Below, piece by piece: positions 3,776 to 32,734 of a DNA stretch of 39,571 nt. The DNA is taken from the NCBI GenBank assembly GCA_902761225.1, contig CACWJQ010000025.1, positions 1 through 39,571 of the forward strand, given 5' to 3'. This stretch comes from an uncultured Lachnospiraceae bacterium (GTDB taxonomy: Bacteria; Bacillota; Clostridia; Lachnospirales; Lachnospiraceae). How positions within the stretch are numbered: position 1 is the first letter of the stretch; each line of letters begins with the position of its first letter. The position numbers were made by a program, and so were the translations under genes. A model generated the notes under the pieces. It saw nothing but the letters and a program-made list of their open reading frames with translations. It did not search any database and was not told the origin of the DNA.

Positions 3776-3802
3776 GTTGTCATGAAAACCTTAAGAGGGA
3801 AG

Positions 3803-6496: not shown

Positions 6497-7961
6497 TTAC
6501 ATAATGATAGCGGAGATCCTGGGATTATGGGTAATGCTTGATTCCAACGTTCATCTGAAAAAGAGAACGATCACCGCAACCCGTATCGTTATAATCCTGA
6601 TATTTACAGAGGCTGTATTCTGGGCGGTCGAAAGGTGGACCAGGGAGATCGGTTACCTGACATGGACCAGGATCATCCTTACTCCCACCATTTATCTGCT
6701 GCATCCGATAATAGTGCTGGGGATAATGGATATGGCGGAGTATCTGAAGAAGAACAGATTCCTCGTCTATCTTCCCGTTCTCATAAGTGCTCCCCTTCTG
6801 TACACATCACAGTGGACGCATCTGTTTTACTGGTTCGACGAGAACAACCTGTATATCGGCGCAGACAGTATTCTGAGGTATTACCCGTATTTCCTCTTCT
6901 TATTGTATGTTCTCCTGTTCATCGGCGCATTTACTGCCAGATATGCGATGTACGGAACCACGGAGAGAAGGGGCATCCTGATAAGTCTGGTCGCAGCGGC
7001 CATCGGTGTTATCCTGCACATTATATTTGAGATAGATGTGGACTACAGCACTCTTTTCGCATCACTACTGCTCATCTACTATCTGTCACTTTATGTTCTT
7101 ACGGCCAAGGAGGATACCCTGACCCATCTGCTGAACCGCCAGTGTTACTACGCTGATTCGGAAAACCTCAAGGAGCAGATCACGGCAGTTGTATCGGTGG
7201 ATATGAACGATCTTAAGAAGATCAATGATACCCAGGGACATGACGCGGGGGACAAGGCGCTGGTGACGGTTGCGGAATGTCTTACAAAAGGCAGGGTCAG
7301 AAATAAAAAGGTGTACCGCATAGGCGGAGATGAGTACGCTGTCTTCTACATGGGTAAGACCGAAGATGATGTTAAAAAGGACATTGAGCAGATGCGGGGT
7401 GAACTCGCCAAGACTCCCTATGTATGTGCCTTCGGTTATGAGATGGTCAGGGATAAGGATGTTGAGAAGGCCATGCTTGTGGCCGATCGTGAGATGTACA
7501 GCAACAAAGCCAGGATCAAGAAGTCCAGAGAGAAGAAGATCACAGCTCACAGGGAAGCTACCATCAGGGTTATGCATGAAGCACTTGGATCCGGCATGTG
7601 GAGTATGGAATTTGATGAAGACGGAACGATGACTTCTGTTGACTGGAGTCCCGAATTCAGGAAGATGATCGGATATACTGACGAGAATGACTTCCCCAAT
7701 AAGCTGGAATCCTGGTCTGATCTCCTTCACCCCGATGATAAGGAAGCGGTTCTTAAGGAATTCAACGATACCATAGCCGATTATTCCGGAGAGAGGAACT
7801 ACGATGTTGAGTACCGGCTCAAGGTGAAAAGCGGTGAGTGGAGATGGTTCCACGCCATCGGAAGACTGCTCAGATATGAAAACGGATCTCCCATGTCATA
7901 TGTGGGGATGTTCGTGGACATTACGGATCAGAAGAAGGATTATGACAAAAGTCATATCTAA
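6468..7961 (+). CDS. Membrane diguanylate cyclase with C-terminal PAS domain
   Basis: The 497-residue protein opens with about seven membrane helices (residues about 8-215, a MASE- or 7TM-like sensor). A GGDEF domain follows (about 215-350) and then a PAS_3/PAC domain (about 365-490) that ends in DITDQKK. The active-site signature is GGDEY at 286-290, with the metal/substrate block VSVDMNDLKKIND upstream, so synthesis of c-di-GMP is likely. The inhibitory RxxD site is absent: the positions carry Val and Lys. A PAS domain after the GGDEF with nothing beyond it is the reverse of the usual order. The start overlaps the kinase gene by 29 bp and has only a weak ribosome site. No EAL or PilZ gene is nearby. 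Confidence 0.9.
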   Translation: MSVVSLTISNYIMIAEILGLWVMLDSNVHLKKRTITATRIVIILIFTEAVFWAVERWTREIGYLTWTRIILTPTIYLLHPIIVLGIMDMAEYLKKNRFLVYLPVLISAPLLYTSQWTHLFYWFDENNLYIGADSILRYYPYFLFLLYVLLFIGAFTARYAMYGTTERRGILISLVAAAIGVILHIIFEIDVDYSTLFASLLLIYYLSLYVLTAKEDTLTHLLNRQCYYADSENLKEQITAVVSVDMNDLKKINDTQGHDAGDKALVTVAECLTKGRVRNKKVYRIGGDEYAVFYMGKTEDDVKKDIEQMRGELAKTPYVCAFGYEMVRDKDVEKAMLVADREMYSNKARIKKSREKKITAHREATIRVMHEALGSGMWSMEFDEDGTMTSVDWSPEFRKMIGYTDENDFPNKLESWSDLLHPDDKEAVLKEFNDTIADYSGERNYDVEYRLKVKSGEWRWFHAIGRLLRYENGSPMSYVGMFVDITDQKKDYDKSHI

Positions 7962-13062: not shown

Positions 13063-13827
13063 ATGGAATTCAGAAAGATATTTGATACGATCCCGGAGAG
13101 GTTCGATAAATTCAGACCCCGCTACAGTGCGGAACTTTTTGAATATCTGATAAAAACAGCAGAAATAGGTCCCGATAAAAAGGTGCTGGAGATAGGTCCG
13201 GGCACGGGACAGGCAACGGACCCGATACTCAATACGGGATGCGATTATAATGCCATCGAGCTTGGCGAGCATTTGTATGCCAAGATGAGGGAAAAGTATG
13301 ACAGCTATCCGAATTTTCACATAGTGAATGATGATTTTATCACCCATGATTTCGGAGATACGAAGTTTGATATGATCTATTCGGCAGCCACGATCCAGTG
13401 GATACCGGAGAGATATGCTTTTCCCAAGACACTGGAACTGTTAAAACCCGGCGGAACCCTTGCCATGATGTACCTGATAGGAGATTACAAGACTCCCAAT
13501 GAAGAACTCTTTGAGAAGATTCAGAAGGTCTACAGCGAGTATTATAAGCCGGAAAGACCGTATAACGAGATGAAGGAACCCTTCGATTACCGCCATGCAA
13601 CGGACTACGGATATGTTGATCTTGTAAGGAATGATTTTCACGGGGTCAGGGTTTTCAATGCGGATGAATATGTCTCATACTGCGGAACTCACAGCGATCA
13701 TCTGGTGATCCCCGAGCCCTATAAGACCAAATTCTTCGAAGGCCTGAGAAATACCGTTCTGGAGAATGGCAACAGGGTGGAGTACAGGGATACATACGTA
13801 CTGTACACTGCGAGAAAAAATTTTTAA
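13063..13827 (+). CDS. Class I SAM-dependent methyltransferase
   Basis: The 254-residue soluble protein has the SAM-binding motif I (VLEIGPGTGQAT, about 41-52), an acidic motif II (AIELG), NDDF as motif III and a post-motif helix around AATIQWIP. This is the Methyltransf_11/25 layout, related to small-molecule enzymes such as trans-aconitate methyltransferases. The substrate cannot be deduced. A strong ribosome site (GAGGAGGAGAGG) precedes the ATG. It lies 96 bp after the response regulator gene without a clear terminator, so it may be transcribed with the exporter operon. A second methyltransferase, fused to a MerR domain, follows. Confidence 0.88.
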   Translation: MEFRKIFDTIPERFDKFRPRYSAELFEYLIKTAEIGPDKKVLEIGPGTGQATDPILNTGCDYNAIELGEHLYAKMREKYDSYPNFHIVNDDFITHDFGDTKFDMIYSAATIQWIPERYAFPKTLELLKPGGTLAMMYLIGDYKTPNEELFEKIQKVYSEYYKPERPYNEMKEPFDYRHATDYGYVDLVRNDFHGVRVFNADEYVSYCGTHSDHLVIPEPYKTKFFEGLRNTVLENGNRVEYRDTYVLYTARKNF

Positions 13828-13836
13828 AAACACTTA

Positions 13837-13867
13837 TTGACTCTTCCCCTGGGGAACCCCTTAAGGT
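13837..13867 (+). promoter_or_regulatory. MerR-type promoter with 19-bp spacer and dyad
   Basis: TTGACT (13837-13842) and TAAGGT (13862-13867) are 19 bp apart. The longer-than-normal spacing is the hallmark of promoters that MerR proteins activate by twisting the DNA. The spacer holds an interrupted palindrome (TTCCCC-T-GGGGAA, 13844-13856) and further GC-rich symmetry. The gene downstream encodes a MerR protein, so autoregulation is likely. Confidence 0.75.
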
Positions 13868-13931
13868 GAGATCATCACAGATTGATCTGGGTTATCGCGA
13901 AGCAATGATTTCACTGTCAGGAGGTAAAGTT

Positions 13932-15116
13932 ATGGATAAGAAAATGACATCGGGCGAGATCGCCAAAATAGCGGGAGTGAGTCAGAAGGCAGTACGCCTT
14001 TATGACGAGAAGGGGCTGCTGAAGCCTTCAGGATATTCGGAAGGCAATTACAGATTATATGATGAATCTTCTCTTAAGATACTTGAGAAGATCGTGGCCC
14101 TTAAGCAGATCGGTTTTTCTCTTGAAGAGATAAGGGACAATCTTGTCGCCGGAGATGCATCGGATGTTGAAGAGGCGCTCAGGATACAGCTTAAGGAGAT
14201 GGAGGACCGCAGATATCAGATGGATAAGGTGATAGCTGCCATCTCCGGAACTCTCGAGAGAAAAGAGAAAAAGCTGGACTGGGATGATGTTGCTGAGATC
14301 GTTCAGACCATAAGCCTGGACCAAAGAGCGGATGAAAGACACTGGGACGCTCTTAAGCACACCGGATCCGAGCCCGACTGGTATGTGAGGATCTTTGATT
14401 CTCTCGGACTTAAAGGTAAAGAAAGGATACTCGACCTTGGATGCGGTTTCTCCAAGCTCTGGAGGAACAACTGGAGTGATATCCCCGAGGGCAGCAGTAT
14501 CCATGCATATGATGTACACGGGAGCTGGGCTGACAACTTTGCAGAGTATCTCGAAGAAAACAGGGCAGCTCTTCCGAAGGGAGTTAATATCGATCTGGAG
14601 TTTTCCGATCTTGAGGAAGCTGAGACCTGGGATAAGATAAGTGAAGATAAAGAGTATGATGTGATCATCGCCCATTATCTTTCTTATATGCTCAAGGATC
14701 CCGAGGCTCTTATCGGGAGAGCGGCCGGTGTACTGTCCGATAAAGGGTATTTTTCGTTCGGAACCGTTTCCCGTGGATCGTGGCAGAAGTTTTTCGGAAA
14801 GGCTCTGGAAGCGATTGGTTCAAAAACAGACGTTATTGATAAGAAGCTGGATCAGCTGGACAAAGAGAATCAGGTCTGCCTTGACATGCTGAACAGACAT
14901 TTCGGAAGGACCGAGTCCGTGGTCATATCCAACAAGTGGCATTATACCGAAGCGGAAGAGATCCTTACCAAGATGTCAGAGGTCGTGGATGATCAGAATG
15001 TGATGTCTCCCGCTAACAGAAAGAAGCTCCTGGAGTATTTCGGCGGACTGATCGGCAGGGACGGTGAGATTGTGATCGAAGTAGAGTCCCAGTTCTGGCA
15101 CTGCTTTAAACAGTAA
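13932..15116 (+). CDS. MerR transcription factor fused to a SAM methyltransferase
   Basis: The 394-residue protein begins with a MerR winged helix-turn-helix (about 5-75; TSGEIAKIAGVSQKAVRLYDE). A coiled-coil dimerisation helix (about 80-125) follows. The effector-binding domain is replaced by a class I methyltransferase (about 145-394, motif I ILDLGCGFSKLW). The frame is open further 5', but AGGAGGT at 13919-13925 fixes the start at the ATG 13932. MerR proteins open promoters with long spacers, and such a promoter lies just upstream. A regulator that binds the substrate of its own enzyme domain could induce its own synthesis; that is inference. A strong terminator follows. Confidence 0.88.
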   Translation: MDKKMTSGEIAKIAGVSQKAVRLYDEKGLLKPSGYSEGNYRLYDESSLKILEKIVALKQIGFSLEEIRDNLVAGDASDVEEALRIQLKEMEDRRYQMDKVIAAISGTLERKEKKLDWDDVAEIVQTISLDQRADERHWDALKHTGSEPDWYVRIFDSLGLKGKERILDLGCGFSKLWRNNWSDIPEGSSIHAYDVHGSWADNFAEYLEENRAALPKGVNIDLEFSDLEEAETWDKISEDKEYDVIIAHYLSYMLKDPEALIGRAAGVLSDKGYFSFGTVSRGSWQKFFGKALEAIGSKTDVIDKKLDQLDKENQVCLDMLNRHFGRTESVVISNKWHYTEAEEILTKMSEVVDDQNVMSPANRKKLLEYFGGLIGRDGEIVIEVESQFWHCFKQ

Positions 15117-15350: not shown

Positions 15351-16868
15351 ATGAAACATCTGAAAAAGCTCACACTGCTTCATTCCAACGACATGCACGG
15401 GGACTTCCTCGCGGAGCAGATAGATGAGAATCTGGTAGGCGGTGTGTCGCTTCTTTCCGGATATATAAGCAAGGTAAGACAGGAAGAGAAGAATGTCATA
15501 TATGCGATAGCGGGGGACATGTTCTGCGGATCTGTAATAGATTCCGAGTTCCATGGGATCTCTACCATACAGATAATGAACATGCTCTCTCCGGATATCG
15601 TGACCATAGGAAACCATGAAGTGGACTATGGGGTGGCACATCTGCTGTTTTTGGAAAAATGTGCGGAATTTCCCATAATCAACGCCAATATGTATCTTAA
15701 GACCAATCATACAAGGCTCTTTGAGCCCTGTAAGGTGATAGAGATCGACGGGATGAAGATACTGTTTATAGGAATACTGACAGAGCTTACCCTAATGAAG
15801 TGCAAGATGGATAAGAAGGTAGGCACATTCGTGACATTGGAAGAAGCTGCAAGTGAAGTCGGAAGGATATGCAATGCATACAATTCAACGGATGTGGATA
15901 TGACAGTGCTTCTGACCCATATCGGTCTCGAGGAGGATAAGAAACTTGCCGCCCTGCTGGACCCGGCATGGGGAGTGGACCTTATCATAGGCGGGCATTC
16001 CCATGATTATCTGGAGGCTCCTGAGGTGGTAAACGGTATCCCCATTGTTCAGGTGGGAACCGGAACGGATCATATAGGACGCTTTGACCTTGTTATAGAT
16101 ACCGACAGAAATGAGATAGATTCTTATACATGGACTCCGATCCCCATAAATGACAGTACATGTCCAAGGGATGAGTCCATAGAAGAGATGATACGCACAT
16201 ATAAGGATATTACCGATGAAAAATATGGGCGTATCATAACCAAGTTCGTAAGAAAACTGACGGCTCCGTCACATATTGAGGAGACGGAGATAGGTGATCT
16301 TTTTGCGGATGCACTTAAGGATTCACTGGGAGTGGATATCTTCCTGCTGGCATCCGGTTCATTTCGCGTGAAGGAATTCGGTCCGATTGTTACAAAGGCG
16401 GATTTTGATGAGTGCTTTCCATTTGATGACAGTGCACATCTGATGTACTGGACCGGAGCACAGTTAAGACACGCGCTTCTCAATATGCTGAGAGACGAAG
16501 CCCTTGCAGGTGAGCATACGGAATTCTACCAGGTATCACGCGGAGTGGAATTTGAATATGACGAGAATACCCATACTCTTCTTAAACTGAACTTTGAGGG
16601 TGAACCGGTTGACGATGAGAGGATCTATACGATAGGGCTTCAGGATTTCCATTATAAGAATCTGAAGGATTCCTTCGATCTTGATCATGAGGAAGTGGAG
16701 AAGGATCATCCCCAGCGTGAGATAGCGACCTCCTGTGTTCAGGTGCTGGAAGAATATCTGCAGAAGGGCAGACACCAGGATGCAAGGGTGGAGGGAAGGA
16801 TGATCATCCATCTGACTGAAGAGAATCTCCGAAAAAAAGTAGAGAGGATGAAGGAAGGTAAATTCTAA
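15351..16868 (+). CDS. 5'-nucleotidase/UDP-sugar hydrolase-like metallophosphatase
   Basis: The 505-residue enzyme has the metallophosphoesterase blocks LLHSNDMHGDF (about 8-18), GDMFCG, GNHEVDYG and GGHSHD, which bind two metal ions. A C-terminal 5'-nucleotidase domain (about 290-470) follows. No signal peptide or membrane helix is present, unlike secreted UshA. It should therefore act in the cytoplasm, as Bacillus YunD is thought to. Likely substrates are nucleotides or nucleotide-sugars; which ones is unknown. The gap to the next ATG is only 15 bp and there is no terminator, so it is the first gene of the operon with the sugar-binding lipoprotein, kinase and regulator. Confidence 0.9.
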   Translation: MKHLKKLTLLHSNDMHGDFLAEQIDENLVGGVSLLSGYISKVRQEEKNVIYAIAGDMFCGSVIDSEFHGISTIQIMNMLSPDIVTIGNHEVDYGVAHLLFLEKCAEFPIINANMYLKTNHTRLFEPCKVIEIDGMKILFIGILTELTLMKCKMDKKVGTFVTLEEAASEVGRICNAYNSTDVDMTVLLTHIGLEEDKKLAALLDPAWGVDLIIGGHSHDYLEAPEVVNGIPIVQVGTGTDHIGRFDLVIDTDRNEIDSYTWTPIPINDSTCPRDESIEEMIRTYKDITDEKYGRIITKFVRKLTAPSHIEETEIGDLFADALKDSLGVDIFLLASGSFRVKEFGPIVTKADFDECFPFDDSAHLMYWTGAQLRHALLNMLRDEALAGEHTEFYQVSRGVEFEYDENTHTLLKLNFEGEPVDDERIYTIGLQDFHYKNLKDSFDLDHEEVEKDHPQREIATSCVQVLEEYLQKGRHQDARVEGRMIIHLTEENLRKKVERMKEGKF

Positions 16869-16883
16869 TTGAAAGGCACAGAT

Positions 16884-17861
16884 ATGCTTAAGAACAAGGT
16901 CATCAGGTATCTGACGGTCATACTGACTCTATTTGTGATCGCAGGATGCGGCAGTACTGAGGAAGAGCCTGCTGATACGGGACTGTTACTGGGTTTTAGT
17001 CAGATCGGATCTGAGAGTGCATGGAGGATCGGCAATACAAGGGATATAGAGAATTCTGCAGACAATTACGGGATCAGCCTCATGCTGGAAAATGCGAATC
17101 AGAGTCAGGAGAACCAGATTGCGGCAATAAGGCGGTTTATCGCCTACAAGGTGGATGTCATAGCATTCTCTCCAATTGTCGAGGATGGCTGGGATAATGT
17201 ACTTATGGAGGCCAAGGAAGCCGGGATTCCGGTTATCCTTGTTGACAGGGATATAGAGACTACCAGAGACGATCTTACCACCTGTCTGATAGGTGCCGAT
17301 TTCTATAATGAAGGAGTAATGGCTGCGGAGTACCTGATCCGCAAGGCTGATGAACTGGGGCTCGAACATGTCAATATCGTTGAGATCACCGGAACAGAGA
17401 ATTCCACTCCCATGAGACAGCGTCAGGCGGGATTTGCGGATACCATAGCAGAAGATGAACGTATGTGTATCCTGGAGAGGATCGACGGAGACTTCCTTAA
17501 AAGCCGCGGTGCTGAGTGCATGAGATATCTTCTCGAAACATACGGTGATGACATAGATGTCGTTTTCTCACATAATGATGAGATGACACTGGGTGCCCTT
17601 CCTGAGATTGAGAAGACTGACCTTGTACCCGGACAGGACATTATCATAATATCCATCGACGGAGGCCAGGAGGCCATCGATGCCCTCAAGGCCGGCAGGA
17701 TCAATTGTGTCGTGGAGTGCACTCCCAATCTGGGAAATGAACTGATGGAAACGGCTCTCAGTCTCAAAAACGGTGAAGAAGTTGAAGCAGTGATCCATCC
17801 TGTCGAAAGGATATTCAGTGATGAGCAGGATGTATCGGCCATAGGTCCCAGAGGATATTGA
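16884..17861 (+). CDS. Sugar-binding lipoprotein, YtfQ-like, probable sensor subunit
   Basis: From the ATG at 16884 (AAAGG ribosome site; a TTG 15 bp earlier is less likely) the protein has 325 residues. It has a signal peptide with lipobox IAGC and lipidated Cys22. The rest is a Peripla_BP_4 fold resembling E. coli YtfQ, the galactofuranose-binding protein: GFSQIGSESAWR near the N-terminus, then ENANQSQENQIAAIRRF, DRDIET and SHNDEMTLGA. It is encoded 9 bp before a LytS-type kinase and not with the transporter, which has its own binding protein. That matches XylFII-LytS of clostridia, where a membrane-bound binding protein delivers the sugar signal to the kinase. The ligand is probably a pentose or hexofuranose. 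Confidence 0.88.
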   Translation: MLKNKVIRYLTVILTLFVIAGCGSTEEEPADTGLLLGFSQIGSESAWRIGNTRDIENSADNYGISLMLENANQSQENQIAAIRRFIAYKVDVIAFSPIVEDGWDNVLMEAKEAGIPVILVDRDIETTRDDLTTCLIGADFYNEGVMAAEYLIRKADELGLEHVNIVEITGTENSTPMRQRQAGFADTIAEDERMCILERIDGDFLKSRGAECMRYLLETYGDDIDVVFSHNDEMTLGALPEIEKTDLVPGQDIIIISIDGGQEAIDALKAGRINCVVECTPNLGNELMETALSLKNGEEVEAVIHPVERIFSDEQDVSAIGPRGY

Positions 17862-17870
17862 GGATAAGGG

Positions 17871-19337
17871 ATGGAGAGGATCAAGAAAGAGAAGAGTATA
17901 CTCGGACGTATAAGCGATCTGAGCCACAGGCTTGTCTTTATGCTTGTGATACCGATCATAATGAGTCTGGTATTTATGCTCGTCTATGCTTCCAAATATC
18001 ATAATGCCATCCTCAGAATGGAGACCATCACCAGTCTGAAGACTGTTGTGACGGAGGATATTCCCGGAAGTGCGTGGAATATAGTAAGCGGGCGCGAAAC
18101 ATTCCCGGAAAGCCGTATCTATGAGAAGATCAATAATGTTGATGAGACTATAGAAATGATCACTCAGAGTACCGGTGCGGAAAACAGGCTTTCCCTTGTT
18201 GTTGCGGGGCGTACGATGCAGACCCTTCGCAATTATGTGGACCGTATACGCGATAATATCGATGATGAGGTTCCTGTTGTCGAAAATGAAGAGGTGCTGA
18301 CAGAGGTAAGAGATGTTGCGGCACTTGTAGACTCCATGCTGAATGATTATATTGAACAGGAGATAAGATCCGCGGCAAGGATGAGCGGAAGCTTAAGACT
18401 CGGTATCTTCATAACTGCAGTATGTGAAGCTCTTATCGTTATTCTGGCCATGTGGATCAGAAACAGATCCGTTATCGCAACCGAGATGTCCATAAGACAG
18501 CCTATAGAAAGACTCGAGGAAGCGGCTGCCAGGATCGCAGAGGGTTCCCTTGATGCAAGGATAGCCGACACTGAGGTAACGGAGCTGAGAAATCTTACCA
18601 GTCAGGTCAATACCATGGCTGACAGGCTCAAGTCAATGATGGATAAGAGTACTCTGGATGCCAAGAAGCTGAGAAAGGCGGAACTGCGTACACTTCAGGC
18701 ACAGATAAATCCTCACTTTCTGTACAACACCCTGGATGCCATAGTCTGGAAGGCTGAGGCGGGAGAGAAGGAAGAAGTCATTCAGCTGACAAGTTCCCTC
18801 AGCGATTTCTTCAGGATCAGCTTATCTTCAGGCGCTGACTGGATACCCATAAGCCAGGAAAAAAAGCATATAGAAGGTTATCTGAAGATCCAGCAGACAA
18901 GATACCGCGATATTTTGAGGTACGAGATCGATATCCCGGATGAGATAGGAAAGTATTATATTCTTAAGCTCCTGCTTCAGCCCCTTGTAGAAAATGCCAT
19001 ATATCACGGAATAAAGATAAAGAGGGGCGGAGGTATCATAAAGGTCTCCGGAAGGCTGGAGGACGGAGTGCTGATATTCAGCGTAAAGGATACGGGCCTT
19101 GGAATGACTCCGGATCAGCTGAGGAAATTAAACGAGAGAATGAAGAAGGGTCAGCCCACGGTCAGTGAAGGTAACGGAGGCTTTGGCCTGGTTAATGTAA
19201 ATATGAGAATACGCCTGTACTATAACCAGGAAAACGGGCTTATGATCGAAAGTAATTCCGAAGGTACGGAGGTCCGTTTCAGCGTTCCTTGCAGGATTCG
19301 AGAGGAGATATTTGAAGATGAAAGTATTTCTGGCTGA
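17871..19337 (+). CDS. LytS/YesM-type sensor histidine kinase
   Basis: The 488-residue kinase has two membrane helices (about 22-42 and 173-193) that flank an outer domain of about 130 residues. This domain looks all-helical and has no Cache or PAS features. A HAMP domain (about 193-250), a His_kinase domain with His282 in QINPHFLYNTLD and a HATPase domain (KDTGLGM, GGFGLVNVN) follow. A plain helical outer domain suits contact with a separate binding protein rather than direct ligand binding. The lipoprotein gene ends 9 bp upstream and the regulator gene overlaps by 20 bp. The partner regulator is the AraC-type protein that follows. Confidence 0.92.
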   Translation: MERIKKEKSILGRISDLSHRLVFMLVIPIIMSLVFMLVYASKYHNAILRMETITSLKTVVTEDIPGSAWNIVSGRETFPESRIYEKINNVDETIEMITQSTGAENRLSLVVAGRTMQTLRNYVDRIRDNIDDEVPVVENEEVLTEVRDVAALVDSMLNDYIEQEIRSAARMSGSLRLGIFITAVCEALIVILAMWIRNRSVIATEMSIRQPIERLEEAAARIAEGSLDARIADTEVTELRNLTSQVNTMADRLKSMMDKSTLDAKKLRKAELRTLQAQINPHFLYNTLDAIVWKAEAGEKEEVIQLTSSLSDFFRISLSSGADWIPISQEKKHIEGYLKIQQTRYRDILRYEIDIPDEIGKYYILKLLLQPLVENAIYHGIKIKRGGGIIKVSGRLEDGVLIFSVKDTGLGMTPDQLRKLNERMKKGQPTVSEGNGGFGLVNVNMRIRLYYNQENGLMIESNSEGTEVRFSVPCRIREEIFEDESISG

Positions 19338-20574
19338 TGATGAGATAGTGGTCAGAGAGGGAATAAGAGAATCTTTTCCGTGGGATGAAACTCCCTATAC
19401 CCTTGTGGGAGAAGCTCCTGACGGAGAAATGGCGCTTCCCATCATCCGTGATACGAATCCCGATATTGTGATCACGGACATAAGAATGCCCTTCATGGAC
19501 GGAATAGAGCTGTGCCGCATACTGCGTGCGCAGATGCCGTGGATAGGGATAATCGTTCTGAGCGGGTACGATGAGTTCGAATATGCCCGTCAGTGCATAA
19601 GACTCGGTGTAAGGGAGTATCTTGTCAAGCCGATCAATGCGGAGAACCTGCGCGAAGCACTGGATAAGGTCAGCGAACAGCTGAAGGAAGAGCGTAAGAC
19701 CATAGAGCATGCCGCAAGTCTCAGGGTGAGACTTGGCAGTGATGAGCAGCTGGTTAAGGAAAAACTGATCGCCTCCCTGTATTCGGAGGAGGCAGCTGCC
19801 GAGGATTCGCACAGTGTATTAAAGCATCTTCATTCAATGGGATGCAATGTAATAGCGCCTTTTTATGCCGTTGTGGACGCTGCCTTCGACCCTGTTGGAA
19901 AGGGACAGGAGGCTGCATTTAACCTGTCGGAGAGCAGCGGAGGAGTAATGCATGCATCGTCAAGCCGGACAGGGGCAGCACTTCTCGTGCTGGGAGACAA
20001 TGCCGGTGATGCCGAGGAGAGGGCCTATGCATTTGCCACATCCCTTGTACGTGAGCTTGAACGTATCGGATGTGTTAAGATACGTGTCGGTATAGGGGAT
20101 ATCGTCGATACTCCCGAGGAGATACTGAGGAGCTTCAAGACGGCAAGGCATATAAGGCATATTCTGGTGGAACGCACCGATGAAAAACCCATGATACTGG
20201 GAACAAGAGAGATGGGAGAAGTGTCTGATGATCCCGGAACCTCCAAGGTTATCAGCGATGCGAAGTTTTATATGTCAGAACATTTTACGGATCCCAATCT
20301 TATGCTCCAGGATGTTGCAAAGTCGGTAAATATGAGCAACAGCCGTTTTTCCACTGTTTTTTCACAGCAGAACGGACAGACATTTACGGAATATCTCATA
20401 TCCCTCAGACTTGGCAAAGCAAAGGAAATGCTCCGCACAACCGGAGTCAAAAGTACCCATATAGCCAGAGAGTGCGGATACAACGACTCTCATTATTTCA
20501 GTTATATCTTTAAGAAGAATGTGGGGATCACTCCTTCGGAGTATCGTGCACAGTTTCAGAATTTTCAGGAATAA
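19318..20574 (+). CDS. YesN-type response regulator, REC plus AraC HTH
   Basis: The 418-residue protein has a receiver domain (1-120; LADDE, Asp54 in ITDIRMPFMDG, Lys in YLVKPIN). A middle linker (about 125-310) follows, then a C-terminal AraC-type double helix-turn-helix (about 315-418; LQDVAKSVNMSNSRFS and THIARECGYNDSHYF). GAGGAG upstream supports the ATG at 19318 rather than the in-frame TTG at 19312. It overlaps the kinase gene by 20 bp. AraC domains bind direct repeats about two helical turns apart. Such repeats start right at the end of this gene, before the transporter operon, which is therefore its likely target. Confidence 0.92.
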   Translation: MKVFLADDEIVVREGIRESFPWDETPYTLVGEAPDGEMALPIIRDTNPDIVITDIRMPFMDGIELCRILRAQMPWIGIIVLSGYDEFEYARQCIRLGVREYLVKPINAENLREALDKVSEQLKEERKTIEHAASLRVRLGSDEQLVKEKLIASLYSEEAAAEDSHSVLKHLHSMGCNVIAPFYAVVDAAFDPVGKGQEAAFNLSESSGGVMHASSSRTGAALLVLGDNAGDAEERAYAFATSLVRELERIGCVKIRVGIGDIVDTPEEILRSFKTARHIRHILVERTDEKPMILGTREMGEVSDDPGTSKVISDAKFYMSEHFTDPNLMLQDVAKSVNMSNSRFSTVFSQQNGQTFTEYLISLRLGKAKEMLRTTGVKSTHIARECGYNDSHYFSYIFKKNVGITPSEYRAQFQNFQE

Positions 20575-20650
20575 AACAATTTTCAACCTGAATAAAATAA
20601 TTTTCAACCATTTTCCCCAAAAAACGTTTTTTTCAAAACAAATTTGAACC
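20571..20650 (+). promoter_or_regulatory. Candidate YesN operator: three repeats before the sugar transporter operon
   Basis: The 18-mer ATAAAAYAATTTTCAACC occurs at 20571-20588 and 20592-20609, with 17 of 18 bases identical and a 21-bp period, the spacing typical of AraC-family sites. A third, looser copy (14 of 16 bases) is at 20635-20650, 41 bp further on, and contains TTGAAC (20644-20649), a plausible -35. A perfect 14-bp palindrome (AAAAAACGTTTTTT, 20619-20632) lies between copies two and three. No good -10 was found at 17 bp, as is common for activator-dependent promoters. Confidence 0.65.
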
Positions 20651-20736
20651 AAGTCAGAATAAACCTCAATTTACTCCGCCTGCAGTGTGATTTAACCTTA
20701 AGTCATACCGCATAGAGCGGAGAAATGGAGGAATTT

Positions 20737-21714
20737 ATGAAAAGGTTTAAAGCAATGGTAATGGCAGGAGTGCTTGCACTTACGCTTGTACTTTCTGCAT
20801 GCGGCGCAGGCGGCGGAAGCGGCAGCGGCGGATCAGGCGGACTTATCAAAGTCGGCGTTATCAATAACCCCCCTTCAGAGTCCGGATACCGTGAAGCAAA
20901 TGTTAAGGATATGGAATCAGTTTTCTCACAGGCTAACGGCTATGAGCTGAAAACATTCTACAGCCTTAAGAACGATGAGCAGCTTCAGGCAGCTCAGGGA
21001 TTCATCACCGAAGGTGTTGATTATCTTCTCATTTCCGCAGCTGAGACTACCGGTTGGGACGAAGTCCTCACCAAGGCTAAGGAAGCCGGAATCAAGGTTT
21101 TCCTTTTCGACCGTATGATCGACGTTGACCAGAGCCTTTACGAGGCAGCAGTTGTTTCTGACATGGCTAAGGAAGGCGAGACCGCAGTTAACTGGCTTCT
21201 TTCACAGAACCTCGGAACCTACAACGTAATCCACATTCAGGGTGCTATGGGTTCTGACGCTCAGATCGGACGTACCGGTGCTCTTCAGGCTCAGTTCGAT
21301 GCAGGAAAGATGAACATGGTTGTTCAGCAGACCGCTACCTGGGACGAGGCAGAAGCTAAGAAGATCGTTGAATCCGTTATCAACAGCGGTGCAGACTTCA
21401 ACGTAATCTATGCAGAGAACGACGGTATGGCAAAGGGTGCTGTAGCTGCACTTGACGAAGCAGGAATTACCCACGGCGTTAACGGTAAGGTTGTCGTTAT
21501 GGGCTTTGACTGCAACAGATGGGCTCTCAGAGAACTCCTTGCAGGAAACTGGAACTATGATGGACAGTGCTCACCTTTCCAGGCACAGATCATCAGTGAC
21601 ATCATCCAGGGAAAGACTACTATTTCCTCTAAGATCATCATCAACGAAGAGAAGGGATTTGACGCTGCAACTCTTACTCAGGCTGATATTGACACTTACG
21701 GATTAGGCGAATGA
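20737..21714 (+). CDS. Sugar-binding lipoprotein of the YtfQ-type ABC importer
   Basis: From the ATG at 20737 (GGAGGA upstream) the protein has 325 residues. It has a signal peptide with lipobox LSAC and lipidated Cys22, then a Gly/Ser-rich linker. The rest is a Peripla_BP_4 fold with ESGYREAN, FDRMIDVDQS and YAENDGMAKGA. It is related to, but clearly diverged from, the lipoprotein at 16884. Being first in the transporter operon, it is the delivery subunit for the importer. Its codon use is noticeably more biased than that of its neighbours, which suggests high expression. A hairpin after the gene probably gives more of this protein than of the channel subunits. The exact sugar is unknown. 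Confidence 0.9.
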   Translation: MKRFKAMVMAGVLALTLVLSACGAGGGSGSGGSGGLIKVGVINNPPSESGYREANVKDMESVFSQANGYELKTFYSLKNDEQLQAAQGFITEGVDYLLISAAETTGWDEVLTKAKEAGIKVFLFDRMIDVDQSLYEAAVVSDMAKEGETAVNWLLSQNLGTYNVIHIQGAMGSDAQIGRTGALQAQFDAGKMNMVVQQTATWDEAEAKKIVESVINSGADFNVIYAENDGMAKGAVAALDEAGITHGVNGKVVVMGFDCNRWALRELLAGNWNYDGQCSPFQAQIISDIIQGKTTISSKIIINEEKGFDAATLTQADIDTYGLGE

Positions 21715-21786: not shown

Positions 21787-23286
21787 ATGCAGAATGAAAT
21801 ATTGCTGCAGATGCGTCATATAGATAAGGTATTCCCCGGCGTCAAGGCGCTGAACGGGGTTGATTTTACTCTGAGAAAGGGTGAGATCCATGCACTTATG
21901 GGAGAGAACGGAGCCGGAAAATCCACTCTCATCAAGGTTCTTACAGGTGTCTACAGAATGGACGGCGGAGAGATAACCGTAGAGGGAAAGAATATCTCCA
22001 TACATTCTCCGCAGGATGCGCAAAATAACGGAATCAGCACAGTTTATCAGGAAATTACCTTATGTCCCAACCTGACAGTGGCCGAGAACATGTTCATCGG
22101 CAGAGAGGACGGGGCATGGATCAAACATAAAGATTATGAAAAAAGAGCGGACGAGATCCTTACAAGGCTGAACATCCCCGCAAGAAGCACCCAGCAGCTT
22201 GAGAACTGTTCACTGGCAGTTCAGCAGATGGTTGCCATAGCCCGTGCGGTTGATATGAAATGTAAGGTTCTTATCCTTGATGAGCCTACCTCATCACTTG
22301 ACGATAAGGAAGTAAATATGCTGTTTACACTTATGAGGGATCTGAAGTCCCAGGGTGTAGGCATCATCTTTGTAACCCATTTCCTGGAGCAGGTATATGA
22401 AGTAAGTGACCGCATCACGGTTCTCAGAAACGGTGAACTTGTGGGTGAATATCTGACCGAAGATCTTCCTCAGGTTGAACTTGTCGCCAGGATGATCGGT
22501 AAGGAACTTGACGAGCTCATGGATCTGGGAGAAACAGAGGAGAAGGAAAAGAAGGAAACAGAGGTCTTCTATGAGGCCGAGAATCTTTCCAGCACCGATG
22601 CCCTTCCCTTTAACTTCGCCATCAAGAAGGGAGAGGTCAACGGATTTACCGGGCTTCTCGGATCCGGGCGAAGCGAAAGCGTAAGAGCGATCTTTGGTGC
22701 CGATAAGGTTACCGGAGGTGATGTGAAGATAAAGGGACAGCCTGTAAAGATCACCCGTCCCATAGATGAAATGAAAAATGGCATAGGTTACCTTGCAGAG
22801 GACAGAAAGCGCGACGGTATCATTGCCGAATTAAGTGTCAGGGAGAATATCATTCTTGCACTCCAGGTTCTCAACGGAATGTTCAAGCCCATCAGCAGAA
22901 GTGAGGCGGAAGCCTTTGCGGATGAGTATATCAAGGTGCTTAACATTAAGACGGCAAGCCGCGAGACACCTGTCGGTTCACTGAGCGGAGGCAATCAGCA
23001 GAAGGTCATTCTCGCAAGATGGCTGCTTACGCATCCTGATTATCTGATACTCGATGAGCCCACAAGAGGTATAGATGTAGGAACAAAGCTTGAGATACAG
23101 AAGCTGGTTCTGAAGCTTGCCGAGGACGGAGTGAGTGTAACCTTCATTTCCTCAGAGGTTGAGGAAATGCTCAGAACATGCAGCAGACTGATAGTAATGC
23201 GTGACAGGCACATAGTGGGTGAACTGAAAGGTGCCGATCTGAATCAGGCGAAGGTTATGAAGACCATTGCGGGAGGTGAGGCTTAA
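21787..23286 (+). CDS. ytfR: Sugar ABC importer ATPase, two nucleotide-binding domains
   Basis: The 499-residue protein has two ABC domains, as in the MglA/RbsA/YtfR class. Domain one has Walker A GENGAGKST, signature region SLAVQQMVAIARAV and Walker B ILDEPTSSLDD. Domain two has the usual degenerate Walker A (GLLGSGRSE), a canonical signature LSGGNQQKVILARWL and Walker B ILDEPTRGID. Such ATPases work as single chains that power a permease pair. AGGAGGT precedes the ATG. The permease genes follow directly. With the YtfQ-like binding proteins the best match is the galactofuranose-type importer; the gene name marks similarity, not proven substrate. Confidence 0.88.
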   Translation: MQNEILLQMRHIDKVFPGVKALNGVDFTLRKGEIHALMGENGAGKSTLIKVLTGVYRMDGGEITVEGKNISIHSPQDAQNNGISTVYQEITLCPNLTVAENMFIGREDGAWIKHKDYEKRADEILTRLNIPARSTQQLENCSLAVQQMVAIARAVDMKCKVLILDEPTSSLDDKEVNMLFTLMRDLKSQGVGIIFVTHFLEQVYEVSDRITVLRNGELVGEYLTEDLPQVELVARMIGKELDELMDLGETEEKEKKETEVFYEAENLSSTDALPFNFAIKKGEVNGFTGLLGSGRSESVRAIFGADKVTGGDVKIKGQPVKITRPIDEMKNGIGYLAEDRKRDGIIAELSVRENIILALQVLNGMFKPISRSEAEAFADEYIKVLNIKTASRETPVGSLSGGNQQKVILARWLLTHPDYLILDEPTRGIDVGTKLEIQKLVLKLAEDGVSVTFISSEVEEMLRTCSRLIVMRDRHIVGELKGADLNQAKVMKTIAGGEA

Positions 23287-23287
23287 G

Positions 23288-24394
23288 ATGAAGAACAAAA
23301 AGAAATCTTTCGGAGGCCTGGGCCAGCTTACGATCCCGGTAATAGCTCTCTGCCTGCTGGTCATATTCAATCTCGTAAGGGATATGTTATTTATCTATTA
23401 TTTCAAGGATCCCAATTACGTAAGCTTTTTCAGTATTGAACTGACCAAAAACAATCTGGACAATATGGTGTTTGCCGGGAACCTCATAAGCATCATTAAC
23501 GGTGCGAGTGAACTTGCCATACTTGCAATGGGCATGACTCTTGTAACCGCTGCCTGCGGCGGACAGGATATCAGCGTGGGTGCTGCTGCCGCCATCGCCG
23601 GAAGCGTATTTGTCAAGATCATTAAAATGTCACCGTGGGTCAATGGAATAGTGGTACTTTTCGCATTCGTGTGTGCATGCATAGTGGCAATGATCTTCGG
23701 ATCATTCAACGGTACGCTGGTAGCAATATTTAAGATACAGCCGATGATAGCCACGCTGATCCTGTATACCTGCGGCAGATCCATAGCATACTGGATCAAC
23801 GGCGGTGCGACCCCTACTGTCAGCAGCCCGGTAATTTCGGCTATAGGAAGCTTTATCCCGGGTATTCCCATTCCCACTCCGGTGCTCATAGTCATCGCAA
23901 TGGCGATAGTGTTCAAGCTTTTGTTCAAGTTCACGGCACTCGAACTGTTTACACAGTCTGTAGGTATCAATCAGAGCGCTGCCAGACTTAATGGTATCAA
24001 CTCTACCTTCATCAAGCTTCTGTCATTCATAATCCTCGGTGTATGTGTGGCGGTTTCCGGATGTATCGGAGTGAGCAGACTCGGACTTATCAATCACGAG
24101 ACGCTGCTTCTCGATATAGAAATGGATACCATTCTTGCAGTTGCCATCGGAGGTAATAATCTCGGAGGAGGAAAGTTCAAGATCAGCGGAAGTATCCTGG
24201 GTGCTTATGTTATCCAGATGCTCACGATCACACTCTACTCCATGAAGGTTTCCTCCACGGATGTTAAGGCTTACAAGGCAATAGTCATCATTCTTCTGGT
24301 TGTGATCGGATCTCCTGTTGTAAAGGAAAAGTTCGGAAAGTTAATGTCGAAGCTCCTGGGAAACAGATCCAAAACAGCAGTGAAAGGAGCGTAA
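23288..24394 (+). CDS. ytfT: Sugar ABC importer permease (YtfT-like)
   Basis: From the ATG at 23288 (GGGAGGTGAG upstream, one base after the ATPase stop) the protein has 368 residues and about nine or ten membrane helices. It shows the BPD_transp_2 permease pattern, including the loop GGQDISVGAAAAIAGSVF and, near the C-terminus, AIGGNNLGGGKFKISGS. An in-frame TTG 21 bp earlier lacks support. It pairs with the next gene as the two halves of the channel, as YtfT and YjfF do. The region between helices one and two is longer than in RbsC-type permeases. Confidence 0.88.
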   Translation: MKNKKKSFGGLGQLTIPVIALCLLVIFNLVRDMLFIYYFKDPNYVSFFSIELTKNNLDNMVFAGNLISIINGASELAILAMGMTLVTAACGGQDISVGAAAAIAGSVFVKIIKMSPWVNGIVVLFAFVCACIVAMIFGSFNGTLVAIFKIQPMIATLILYTCGRSIAYWINGGATPTVSSPVISAIGSFIPGIPIPTPVLIVIAMAIVFKLLFKFTALELFTQSVGINQSAARLNGINSTFIKLLSFIILGVCVAVSGCIGVSRLGLINHETLLLDIEMDTILAVAIGGNNLGGGKFKISGSILGAYVIQMLTITLYSMKVSSTDVKAYKAIVIILLVVIGSPVVKEKFGKLMSKLLGNRSKTAVKGA

Positions 24395-25426
24395 GTGATC
24401 ATGAAGAATAATAACAGATATCAACGTGAACCGCTTACAGACACTCAGCTTTTGATGAGTATCACAATAGTGATATTCGTTGTAATGTATCTTCTTGCGA
24501 TGATAATACTTCAGGGAGGATTCCTTCACCCTCAGCAGATCTTTGATATGCTGAACGATAATGCAAGCCTTATCATCGTATCCTGCGGACTTACCGTCGT
24601 AATGATAGGTGCAGGTATCGATATCAGTGTCGGTGCAGTAACCTCGCTTGTGGTAATGAGCTGTGTTATGTATCTTAACAACGGAGGCAGCATAGCCGGT
24701 TCGGTCTTTCTTGCACTCTGCATCGGACTTGCTTTTGGAATGATGCAGGGATTTTTGATCAGTTATCTGGACATTCAGCCTTTTATAGTAACACTTGCCG
24801 GAATGTTCCTTGCCCGTGGTATGACCACGATCCTTTCCGTCAATCCGCAGAAGGTTGAACATGAAGGATTCGCTGCACTCAGAAGTATTAAGATAGAGAT
24901 AAATGCTCTCGGCTATACGGCACCCAATGGGAACTTTATCCCTGCACGTATGGAACTCGGAGTTGTTGTTGCCCTGCTCTGCATAGTTTTCATTTTTATC
25001 CTGCTCAAGTATATCCGTTTGGGCCGTGGCTTCTATGCGATAGGCGGTAACCAGCAGAGTGCTCTTATGCTTGGTATCAATGTAAAGAGAACACGTTTCC
25101 TGAGCTACATAATAAGCGGTGTTTTGAGCGGAATATCAGGGTATGTCTTTATGATGCATACCGGCGCAGGAAATGCCACAAATGCAGCCGGAATGGAAAT
25201 GAACGCAATAGCATCCTCGATCATAGGAGGAACCCTTCTCACAGGCGGTGTTGGAAATGTGCTGGGTACATTCTTCGGAACGCTGACACTTACCACAATA
25301 AAGAAGATCGTTGTTTCCAGCGGACTTAACGATCCCTGGTGGCAGAGCATCACAACCGGAGGAATGCTGTGTTTCTTCATTCTTCTTCAGAGCGTGGTGC
25401 TGAACAGACGTAACAGAAAGAAATAA
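24395..25426 (+). CDS. yjfF: Sugar ABC importer permease (YjfF-like)
   Basis: The 343-residue protein has about eight to ten membrane helices and the same BPD_transp_2 hallmarks (GAGIDISVGAVTSLVV; IIGGTLLTGGVGNVLGT). The start could be GTG 24395, 5 bp after AGGAG, or ATG 24401, 11 bp after it; spacing favours the GTG. It follows the first permease gene directly. It is the last gene of the importer operon and ends before a strong terminator. The presence of two different permease genes is a point in favour of the YtfQRT-YjfF class over ribose or galactose importers, which use one. Confidence 0.87.
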   Translation: MIMKNNNRYQREPLTDTQLLMSITIVIFVVMYLLAMIILQGGFLHPQQIFDMLNDNASLIIVSCGLTVVMIGAGIDISVGAVTSLVVMSCVMYLNNGGSIAGSVFLALCIGLAFGMMQGFLISYLDIQPFIVTLAGMFLARGMTTILSVNPQKVEHEGFAALRSIKIEINALGYTAPNGNFIPARMELGVVVALLCIVFIFILLKYIRLGRGFYAIGGNQQSALMLGINVKRTRFLSYIISGVLSGISGYVFMMHTGAGNATNAAGMEMNAIASSIIGGTLLTGGVGNVLGTFFGTLTLTTIKKIVVSSGLNDPWWQSITTGGMLCFFILLQSVVLNRRNRKK

Positions 25427-26853: not shown

Positions 26854-26875
26854 TTATGTGACCGGAGTGACAGAT

Positions 26876-27313
26876 TTGAAGATTGATATACGGAAAATAG
26901 AATCCGGAGAAGATGAGATCATCATAAGATACCGGGAAGAAACGGAGCAGATCAGAGCTGTGCTGGATGTGCTGCGATGTGAGGGTGAGAAGCTCTACGG
27001 TAAAAAAGACGGAGATACCGTATCCGTGATCCCGGGAGATATCCTGTACATAGAGTCTGTTGATGACAGGATCTTCGCGTATACCGCGGGCGACGTGATA
27101 AGACTTGAGGGTTCTCTTGCAGGAATCATACAGAAGCTGAACGATGACAGATTCTTCAGATGCAGCAAGTCAATGATCATCAATATTGATAAGGTTGAAA
27201 GGCTCAGAAGCCTCTCATCGAACCGCATCGATGCCACAATGGAAGGCGGAGAACACATTCTGATATCAAGGACATATGCTTCGGAATTCCGAAGGATCCT
27301 TAAGGGAGTATGA
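26876..27313 (+). CDS. Stand-alone LytTR DNA-binding regulator
   Basis: The protein is about 145 residues, with a LytTR DNA-binding domain in the C-terminal two thirds (GDILYIESVDDRIFAYT; FFRCSKSMIINIDKVERL) and no receiver domain. A GTG at 26858 is in frame, but the TTG at 26876 has GGAG 9 bp upstream and gives the N-terminus usual for this family (MKIDIRKIE). It overlaps the next gene, a DUF3021 membrane protein, by 4 bp. LytTR plus small membrane protein pairs are known from streptococci (HdrRM, BrsRM), where the membrane protein restrains the regulator. The ABC transporter just downstream is a plausible target. Confidence 0.88.
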   Translation: MKIDIRKIESGEDEIIIRYREETEQIRAVLDVLRCEGEKLYGKKDGDTVSVIPGDILYIESVDDRIFAYTAGDVIRLEGSLAGIIQKLNDDRFFRCSKSMIINIDKVERLRSLSSNRIDATMEGGEHILISRTYASEFRRILKGV

Positions 27314-27792
27314 GACAGATGGATAAGAAGAAAATATCAATTTGGGAAAGATATCTCACAAAAGAGATCGGGATAGAGTTCAAGGCATGTCTGTACTTTT
27401 TCGCCATCCTGTTTTTCTATTGTATGTACAGACTTTGCACCGGACGGACCGAAGCAGGGATACTGCATATGGGAGAGATGATACTTGCATGTTATCTCAT
27501 AGGATATCTGCAGGTATATGTTCTGTGGAACTTTGACGAGGCAGACAGTATAGGAGCAAAGGAAGTGACAGGCGTGTCGGTATGCACACTCATTTATTCG
27601 GGACTTTCCTATCTCCTTGCCTGGTTCGACAGGAATATCTTCGTAACGCTGGGACTTGCGGCATATCTTATTGTGACCTATGCCTGCATCATACTGATAT
27701 ATAAGACCAAGCGCCGGATCGATGATAAAAAGCTTAATGAGGAGCTTGCCTTATTCAAGACGGAACACAAAAAAGTGCATGATAAAGGCTGA
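27310..27792 (+). CDS. DUF3021 membrane protein, partner of the LytTR regulator
   Basis: The 160-residue protein has four membrane helices (about 25-42, 52-74, 85-105 and 110-130) and a charged C-terminal tail inside the cell. The segment GYLQVYVLWNFDEAD is typical of DUF3021 proteins, which almost always lie beside a LytTR regulator. The gene overlaps the regulator by 4 bp (ATGA), so the two are made together. By analogy with known pairs it probably holds the regulator inactive at the membrane until a signal arrives; the signal is unknown. Confidence 0.87.
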   Translation: MRQMDKKKISIWERYLTKEIGIEFKACLYFFAILFFYCMYRLCTGRTEAGILHMGEMILACYLIGYLQVYVLWNFDEADSIGAKEVTGVSVCTLIYSGLSYLLAWFDRNIFVTLGLAAYLIVTYACIILIYKTKRRIDDKKLNEELALFKTEHKKVHDKG

Positions 27793-30733: not shown

Positions 30734-32734
30734 ATGAAAAATTATGCAGATCTGTGGACCGGATACAAAGCAAGAAAGAGCGCAGGAGATATAGCCGTTC
30801 TGAAAAAGTTCTATCTGTCAGGCGGGGCTGAATCCGATAAGATTGTGATAAATGCGGTAAAGGAGCTTAAAGACGGACTGAAGGCCATGCTGGGTATAGA
30901 CCCTGAGGTGGTATACGGTCAGGCTGCCGGATGCGCACCGGTGGCTAATGGTAAGGATATTCAGGACAGAGAAGAGTATACCGTATCACTTTGTGATGAC
31001 GGTGTCAGGATAGATGCAAAGAGCGGTTCCGGAATCCTGTACGGAGTCTTTGATGTGCTTCGCACGGTTTCCTGTGAGAAGGATGTTAAGGCTGTATATG
31101 CCTCCGGCAAAAAGGTTCGTCCTTCCAATCCCTTAAGAATGCTCAATCACTGGGACAATATGGACGGAAGCATCGAGAGAGGGTATTCCGGAGAGTCCTT
31201 CTTCTATGTTGATAATGAGATAGTGATCGATGATCGTACCAGGGATTATGCCAGACTTATCGCTTCTGTAGGCATCAATGCAGTCGTCATCAACAATGTA
31301 AATGTTAAGCAGGCTGCATCCTATATGATAACTGACAGATATTTCGACAAGCTGGCTGAGCTTGGTGAGATTTTTGCCGGATACGGCATCAGACTGTTCC
31401 TGAGCCTTAACTATGCTTCTACCATCGAGATCGGCGGACTCGACAGCGCGGATCCTCTCGATGAGAATGTCATAGCATGGTGGAAGACCAAGATGGCAGA
31501 GGTATTTGACAGGATACCGACTCTTGGGGGATTCCTTGTAAAGGCAGATTCGGAGGGCCGTCCCGGTCCCTTTACCTACGGCAGAACACAGGCAGACGGT
31601 GCCAACATGCTCGCGGATATCGCCAAGGAATACGGCGCTATAATTATCTGGAGATGCTTCGTCTACAACTGCCGTCAGGACTGGAGAGACAGAAAGACTG
31701 ACAGGGCAAGAGCAGGATATGACAACTTCATGCCCATGGACGGAGATTATCACGATAATGTCATCCTTCAGATCAAGAACGGACCTATGGACTTCCAGAT
31801 AAGAGAGCCCATCTCTCCCCTTCTCGGCGGACTTAAGAAGACCAACCAGATGCTTGAGGTTCAGATCGCACAGGAATACACCGGACATCAGATCGATGTA
31901 TGTTATCTTATCCCCGAGTTCAAGGAGATACTCGGATTCAGGACCTATTGCGGCGGTGATAAGGATACCGTTGCCGACATCATCAGCGGAGATACCTTCG
32001 GAAGCAGATATTCCGGGATCGCTGCTGTTACCAATACCGGAAATGATTTTAACTGGACCGGTAACTATCTGGCCGGAGCCAATCTGTTCGGATTCGGAAG
32101 ACTTGCATTTGATACAGAGCTTTCATCCGAAGAGATCGCAGAGGAATTCGTAAGGATGACCATCTCCACGGATGATGCCGTGGTTAAGGAGATCCTTGAT
32201 ATCCTTCTTCCTTCCAGGGAGATCTATGAGAGATATACAAGCCCTCTGGGGATCGGCTGGATGGTAACTCCCGCAACACACTACGGATGCTCTGTGGACG
32301 GATATGAGTATGACAGATGGGGAACATATCACAGGGCAGACCATCTCGGCATAGGAGTTGACAGGACAGACAAGGGAACGGGATATGCTCTTCTGTATAA
32401 TGAGCCCAATGCATCAACATATAACGATCCCGAAAAATGCCCCGATGAGCTGGTACTGTTTTTCCATCATCTTCCATATACACATAAGCTTCACAGCGGC
32501 AAGACCGTTATCCAGCATATCTACGACACACATTTTGAAGGATACGCAGAGGCACAGCAGCTTGCTGAGAAGTGGAATGCGCTCAAGGGAAAGGTTGACG
32601 AAGATATATTCGAAAATGTCAGCGAGAGGTTCACACGCCAGCTTTCCAATGCAAGAGAATGGTGCGATCAGGTGAATTCCTATTTCTTCCGTAAGAGCGG
32701 AATTCCCGATGAGAAGGGACGACAGATCTGGTGA
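30734..32734 (+). CDS. aguA: Alpha-glucuronidase, glycoside hydrolase family 67
   Basis: The 666-residue enzyme removes 4-O-methylglucuronic acid from the ends of short xylan fragments. It has the N-terminal alpha/beta domain, a barrel and a helical C-terminal domain of GH67, at the family's usual length. Conserved blocks include RMLNHWDNMDGSIERGYSG (about 134-152), Glu274 in KADSEGRPGP, Asp330/Asp336 in GYDNFMPMDGDY and Glu358 in DFQIREP; the catalytic carboxylates lie in these last blocks. No signal peptide is present, so it works in the cytoplasm on imported aldouronic acids. GAGGGAA precedes the ATG. With the GH3 enzyme at the window end it points to glucuronoxylan use. Confidence 0.93.
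   Translation: MKNYADLWTGYKARKSAGDIAVLKKFYLSGGAESDKIVINAVKELKDGLKAMLGIDPEVVYGQAAGCAPVANGKDIQDREEYTVSLCDDGVRIDAKSGSGILYGVFDVLRTVSCEKDVKAVYASGKKVRPSNPLRMLNHWDNMDGSIERGYSGESFFYVDNEIVIDDRTRDYARLIASVGINAVVINNVNVKQAASYMITDRYFDKLAELGEIFAGYGIRLFLSLNYASTIEIGGLDSADPLDENVIAWWKTKMAEVFDRIPTLGGFLVKADSEGRPGPFTYGRTQADGANMLADIAKEYGAIIIWRCFVYNCRQDWRDRKTDRARAGYDNFMPMDGDYHDNVILQIKNGPMDFQIREPISPLLGGLKKTNQMLEVQIAQEYTGHQIDVCYLIPEFKEILGFRTYCGGDKDTVADIISGDTFGSRYSGIAAVTNTGNDFNWTGNYLAGANLFGFGRLAFDTELSSEEIAEEFVRMTISTDDAVVKEILDILLPSREIYERYTSPLGIGWMVTPATHYGCSVDGYEYDRWGTYHRADHLGIGVDRTDKGTGYALLYNEPNASTYNDPEKCPDELVLFFHHLPYTHKLHSGKTVIQHIYDTHFEGYAEAQQLAEKWNALKGKVDEDIFENVSERFTRQLSNAREWCDQVNSYFFRKSGIPDEKGRQIW

Follow-up and report, generated by a model that had tools for sequence, protein, structure and literature searches.

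Why would one locus encode two related sugar-binding proteins, one heading an ABC importer and the other placed next to a histidine kinase? This question is raised by a stretch of 39,571 nucleotides (the window) from an uncultured Lachnospiraceae bacterium (contig CACWJQ010000025.1, assembly GCA_902761225.1; genome of 2.70 Mb, 93% complete), in which the gene of a first sugar-binding protein (SBP1) is followed by those of a histidine kinase (HK), a response regulator (RR), a second sugar-binding protein (SBP2), an ATPase and two permeases (Table 1). SBP1 and SBP2 share 73 identical residues out of 269 aligned, and a search of the whole genome with SBP1 detected only these two proteins at E ≤ 0.001. 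We consider it quite likely that the locus is a three-component induction circuit, i.e., that SBP1 senses a sugar and that HK and RR switch on the importer.

The original prediction, made from the sequence alone, described a binding lipoprotein, a kinase and a regulator encoded in overlapping or near-touching genes before an importer with its own binding protein, and this gene order was confirmed: SBP1 and HK are separated by 9 bp, HK and RR overlap by 20 bp, and 150 bp lie between RR and SBP2. A binding-protein gene is therefore contiguous with those of a LytS/YesM kinase and a YesN regulator. The first 270 residues of HK gave near full-length matches at E ≤ 1e-105 in 20 of 31 genomes of the same genus; among the remaining genomes, three showed weak matches and eight none. 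In these 20 loci SBP1 adjoins HK in 19 and so does RR, the exceptions (L024 and L021) being short loci that end there. At the family level, 70 of 397 genomes matched at 1e-6, and new loci were examined for 28 of the match places; outside the genus, the SBP1-HK-RR block recurs in nine genomes, with SBP1 identities of 73–78%, and two carry a relative with 54%. SBP2 follows RR in 18 of the 20 longer stretches of the closer loci (group A), and the contig ends in the other two (L066 and L069). Since the arrangement is kept in relatives of the same genus it is not due to chance, and the locus is probably a functional binding-protein-gated kinase circuit. Weaker matches showed further layouts, such as HK-SBP-RR followed by a separate importer, or RR-HK-SBP2-importer, in some cases with a terminal extra binding protein; three Anaerolineae loci (L109, L110 and L179) have the order RR-HK-SBP-SBP-importer. 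Two genomes of the genus that lack the group-A kinase (G030 and G023; loci L027 and L028) contain a different RR-HK-SBP set, and in L100 (1442–8846) and L066 (4517–11992) other kinase, regulator and CUT2-like permease and ATPase genes lie directly upstream of the SBP1 cassette.

In the mechanism that we infer, lipid-anchored SBP1 would bind an extracellular sugar, probably in its furanose form, and would dock on the helical outer domain of HK, which has no recognisable pocket domain. Ligand binding would alter the HK dimer, and phosphate would move from the phospho-acceptor H282, present in HK within the motif NPHFLYN, to the phosphorylation-site residue D54, present in RR. RR would then bind the conserved element upstream of SBP2 and bring RNA polymerase to the weak promoter from which the SBP2, ATPase and permease genes would be transcribed, and SBP2 would serve transport only.

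The conserved element was revealed by an alignment from RR to SBP2 of 22 loci, two of which (L075 and L079) were shortened by start miscalls. Its mean pairwise identity is 0.73. For comparison, fourfold sites average 0.35 in RR (53 sites) and 0.56 in SBP2 (88 sites), and 116 intergenic columns give 0.57. The TTTAC that ends the block and the TA...T found 17 nt past the candidate -35 hexamer are invariant in all 22 rows. The pattern (≤3 mismatches) matched the window genome once. Among 32 genomes it had a single match in each of 22 carriers out of 29, always on the contig that bears the kinase (in G022, a contig with part of it), and in none of three genomes of the genus without a kinase match (three of the eight mentioned above); the reversed pattern had no match in the same 32 genomes. 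The pattern was built from some of these loci, hence its presence there is by construction and it is its absence elsewhere in each genome that is informative. Because of this absence, RR may control the importer promoter only, and the conserved element in this putative promoter supports the proposal that the importer is the target of the circuit. Two exact ATTTTCAACC repeats placed 21 bp apart could be further half-sites; they are kept only in part across loci, and the five near matches in the window, versus 2.99 expected, were equalled in 13 of 100 shuffles, which is weak alone.

It is in the sign of this control that an alternative survives best: sugar-free SBP1 could hold HK until the sugar releases it, or RR could act as a repressor. 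An element next to the -35 box, or extending into it, in a promoter with poor hexamers is a common place for an activator; this is where the conserved element lies, and we regard the opposite sign as improbable. In its favour, known pairs of binding protein and kinase vary, some being bound in both states (PMC6321045) and others dissociating on ligand (PMC10384115).

According to a second alternative, SBP1 would be a second subunit for transport, delivering a different sugar to this importer, and HK would sense something else. SBP1 is indeed a complete GafA-type lipoprotein with all the importer parts adjacent, and eleven related loci have a single binding protein beside both HK and ABC genes. 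Nevertheless, in a quick tree of 148 binding proteins (those below 30% identity were removed, except for two retained as outgroup), all 30 rows of the SBP1 clade (support 96) are kinase-adjacent and none is ABC-adjacent, with L082 on a very long, uncertain branch; the group-A subset comprises 23 rows (100). SBP2 belongs to a separate clade of 45 rows (100), labelled T in 31 cases, HT in 12, Srr in one and S in one. Moreover, distances between HK outer domains in 34 loci correlate at 0.964 with those of the sensor binding protein versus 0.659 with those of the transport one (0.749 and 0.505 in the 19 group-A loci only), and SBP1 precedes a separate candidate importer promoter. This alternative is thus quite improbable, and the separate clade, together with the fact that SBP1 varies with the kinase rather than with SBP2, supports the earlier view of SBP1 as a dedicated sensor rather than a transport subunit. 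The correlation with the sensor binding protein is also high for the kinase core (0.979), and the partial correlation of the outer domain with it, the core being held, is only 0.276; these values therefore point to a co-inherited cassette rather than to residue-level coevolution. Sensors of other layouts form sets of 11 rows (100) and 4 rows (98), four Chloroflexi rows were not united with support, and the label S requires 7 changes on the tree, hence the sensors are not one lineage. A C-terminal Arg-x-Tyr/Phe tail was considered as a mark of sensors and rejected; it is present in 46 of 54 sensors, but also in 7 of 54 ABC-adjacent and 14 of 32 double-neighbour binding proteins.

No sensor domain of Pfam was detected in HK at E ≤ 0.001, and the predicted structure (ma148c366c6fa, residues 3–260) has a helical outer part with no strands. 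Its first-ranked fold by VIA was LytSN, which Foldseek placed fifth by E-value, with the highest target TM-score (0.87) among the matches listed; the outer domains of HK and of the LytS partner of XylFII are 8% identical. This fold assignment calls for caution given that it concerns a helical bundle and that the Z scores of LytSN and 4k0d are within 1. A PDB profile search with the outer domain retrieved mostly HAMP regions and NarQ, and LytSN was not in the best 60 of 162. HK thus appears to have the helical outer domain that had been predicted, with a LytSN fold, instead of the Cache or PAS pocket that had been named as the contrary outcome, and it is not a dCache kinase of the YesM group. 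SBP1 and the outer part of the kinase, modelled as one read-through chain, were each folded with confidence (mean pLDDT 92.6) and gave a pTM of 0.64, values of a single-chain model whose alignment paired both proteins in 2 of 36 other rows (L100 and L105), the rest being single.

The absence of a Cache domain goes along with a neighbouring binding protein. Of at least 589 kinase loci, the best 80 were sorted, according to where the phospho-acceptor His lies, into a short (47) and a long (31) class, leaving out L113 and L150, which have no kinase frame. None of 45 short-class kinases (44 loci plus the window; L102, L117 and L125 were excluded for cut or unsure N-termini) matched a Cache model, and one matched 4HB_MCP_1 at 9e-4; dCache_1 was matched by 30 of the 31 long-class kinases. 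A YtfQ-like binding-protein gene (≥30% identity) lies on the same strand within 300 bp in 44 of 47 short-class versus 0 of 31 long-class loci (Fisher p 1e-18, the loci not being independent). The exceptions are L102 and L141, cut by contig ends, and L107, where this gene is found past the regulator; a weaker binding protein is near 4 of the 31 long-class kinases. A last alternative, in which the HK bundle binds a small ligand directly in the manner of NarQ or PcaY and SBP1 is a neighbour or helper only, is the least probable, for although the NarQ, PcaY_PP and MCP2201 domains are also among the closest folds, and overproduced CuaSR of Ruminiclostridium cellulolyticum still responds to cellobiose without CuaD (PMC10384115), LytSN leads in VIA and in target TM-score, the nearby binding-protein gene is missing only in L107 where sequence is present, and the outer part of CuaS showed no binding to any of three sugars (PMC10384115). 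Natural fusions of binding protein and kinase were not seen among the short-class frames, which at 422–545 residues are too short to include a binding protein, no systematic search having been made. In L104 (39–2900), a 953-residue open frame has a sensor binding protein as its last third, and its first 658 residues have no Pfam match at 1e-5. In the Paenibacillus loci L132 and L166 a long-class kinase, with dCache_1 in L132, is encoded divergently from a YtfQ-like importer with two flanking binding-protein genes.

Which sugar would SBP1 sense? YtfQ is the best NCBIfam model for both SBP1 (240.3 bits) and SBP2 (138.6 bits), neither of which reaches the equivalog cut-off of 510; the importer scores are also below their cut-offs (YtfR 637.8/850, YtfT 183.7/535, YjfF 248.1/363). 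The xylF model gives SBP1 44.4 bits against a cut-off of 389.55, and SBP1 is not of the XylF type. By sequence and fold it belongs to the YtfQ/GafA clade, its nearest structures being 6hbd/6hbm from M. smegmatis, with D-galactofuranose (D-Galf) and L-arabinofuranose (L-Araf), 5ocp from Shewanella, with L-Araf, and 2vk2 from E. coli, with D-Galf. In E. coli YtfQ, Arg38 and Asp111 are key residues, and in Shewanella GafA, Phe40 likely shuts out D-Galf (PMC10191376). Matched by hand to the positions of that article with an offset of 21, SBP1 keeps the equivalents of the Trp (W47), Arg38 (R48) and Asp111 (D121), and has Asn51 at the position of Phe40; therefore, it is possible that it binds either D-Galf or L-Araf. 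In SBP2 a Tyr replaces the stacking Trp.

The window bacterium likely uses plant polymers, as the genome has eight GH43 matches and the window contains a GH67 alpha-glucuronidase gene (30734–32734) after an aldo/keto reductase with a 4Fe-4S domain. L-arabinose isomerase (AraA) had no match in the window genome or in 17 of the 20 same-genus carriers; with eight GH43 matches, it may be that arabinose is set free without being consumed. L-arabinose was rejected as the ligand by association, since no more than 8 of the 29 group-A genomes have AraA (G306 by a partial match), versus 15 of 17 genomes of the more distant loci (Fisher p 1.5e-4, the genomes not being independent); among eight group-A genomes at least 98% complete, three have it. 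In six of these 17 more distant genomes (G115, G172, G179, G229, G272 and G302) araA is within 15 kb of the kinase. A neighbour scan of two such loci found araA, an FGGY kinase, a class II aldolase and a mutarotase next to L087, and araA and a mutarotase next to L088. GalK is so widespread, with 28 of the 29 group-A genomes having it, that it is no argument for galactose. That cue and cargo differ, SBP1 reading a furanose sugar of plant polymers and SBP2 carrying another sugar, is a reading that we hold to be unlikely; it is based on the full GafA furanose site of SBP1 (Trp, Arg, Asn and Asp) and the Tyr for Trp of SBP2, whose clade sits on a long branch (2.04). If true, it would represent an extracellular sensor of a short-lived furanose form, of which no description was found in literature searches that covered the best matches, with subscription papers mostly outside.

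The working principle proposed here is that of XylFII-LytS and its YesN-type regulator in Clostridium beijerinckii (PDB 5XSJ/5XSD). XylFII binds D-xylose, and the importer that goes with XylFII-LytSR takes up xylose and is of the CUT2 class, to which the window importer also belongs. The contiguous gene set and the first rank of LytSN in VIA agree with the predicted XylFII-LytS/YesN-like architecture; however, the window circuit is not a member of that family proper because SBP1 is not of the XylF type. Similarly, AraPST of Geobacillus stearothermophilus reportedly comprises a sensor binding protein, a kinase and a regulator for the L-arabinose importer AraEGH, beside which, as in the window, it is encoded. 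The window differs in that its genome lacks an AraA match; the two systems are set side by side by description. BT1754 (PDB 2x7x), a hybrid two-component sensor of Bacteroides, also uses the binding-protein fold as a sensor, with this domain and the kinase in one protein. AraPST is named, and AraEGH termed CUT2, in PMC4194401. CuaDSR resembles the window circuit in having a dedicated sensor binding protein, a HAMP kinase, a YesN/AraC regulator and a separate importer binding protein, and contact of CuaD with its kinase was detected by two-hybrid; it differs in its 410-residue cellobiose-binding protein and in a much larger outer part, between transmembrane helices 30–49 and 316–339 (PMC10384115). 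The same article lists C. beijerinckii and G. stearothermophilus as having carbohydrate systems with two binding proteins, for sensing and uptake. A locus of P. thermoglucosidasius contains YesM-YesN, a ChvE-like binding protein and a second putative arabinose-binding protein, either of which may act with the kinase (PMC13068155). The GafA/YtfQ proteins whose Trp, Arg38 and Asp111 equivalents SBP1 keeps (E. coli YtfQ, Shewanella GafA, M. smegmatis MSMEG_1712) are presented as subunits of transporters, with no kinase mentioned in the available part of PMC10191376, whereas SBP1 is a proposed sensor. The earlier remark that no description of such a circuit was known for this transporter class is overstated, given AraPST and XylFII-LytSR, which belong with CUT2 importers; as far as these searches go, no circuit of a YtfQ-type binding protein and a kinase was found, and the novelty lies in the YtfQ/GafA subtype only.

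The arrangement recurs in dozens of loci spread over Lachnospiraceae, other Clostridia and Chloroflexi, and its sensors belong to several distinct lineages. This suggests that YesM/LytS kinases gated by a sensor binding protein are more than isolated oddities. A simple predictive rule would be the combination of no Cache domain, a short helical outer domain and a neighbouring binding-protein gene; for many orphan gut kinases, the search for a ligand could then start by assaying the adjoining lipoprotein. Sensors of the SBP1 type are candidate natural furanose biosensors.

Table 1. Features of the circuit and the importer in the window
Feature	Position	Strand	Description
SBP1	16884..17861	+	Lipoprotein, YtfQ/GafA-clade sugar-binding protein, proposed dedicated sensor; Peripla_BP_4 6e-40; lipobox IAGC assigned by eye
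HK	17871..19337	+	YesM/LytS-type histidine kinase; Pfam His_kinase, HATPase_c, HAMP
HK outer domain	18003..18371	+	Residues 45-167, predicted helical bundle; limits taken from the alignment to LytSN and shifted two residues
RR	19318..20574	+	YesN-type response regulator; Response_reg, GGDEF_2, HTH_18 (AraC-type HTH)
Two ATTTTCAACC repeats	20579..20609	+	Possible further half-sites
Conserved element	20641..20674	+	Candidate operator; extends into -35 box
Candidate importer promoter	20670..20698	+	TTTACT, 17 nt, TAACCT; hexamers assigned by us
SBP2	20725..21714	+	Transport binding protein of the importer, by best model (YtfQ) and tree clade
Importer ATPase	21787..23286	+	Best model YtfR
Importer permease 1	23288..24394	+	Best model YtfT; first ATG taken, listed frame begins TTG at 23267
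Importer permease 2	24395..25426	+	Best model YjfF

The gene of a UshA-like 5'-nucleotidase (15351–16868) stops 15 bp upstream of SBP1; it is probably outside the circuit because the genes upstream of SBP1 differ among the relatives fetched. Elsewhere in the window, a hybrid kinase that combines dCache, receiver and Hpt domains overlaps a GGDEF-PAS protein (3782–7961), a methyltransferase precedes a MerR regulator that contains a methyltransferase-like domain (13063–15116), and a LytTR regulator and a DUF3021 protein (26858–27792) precede an ABC-2 type transporter pair.

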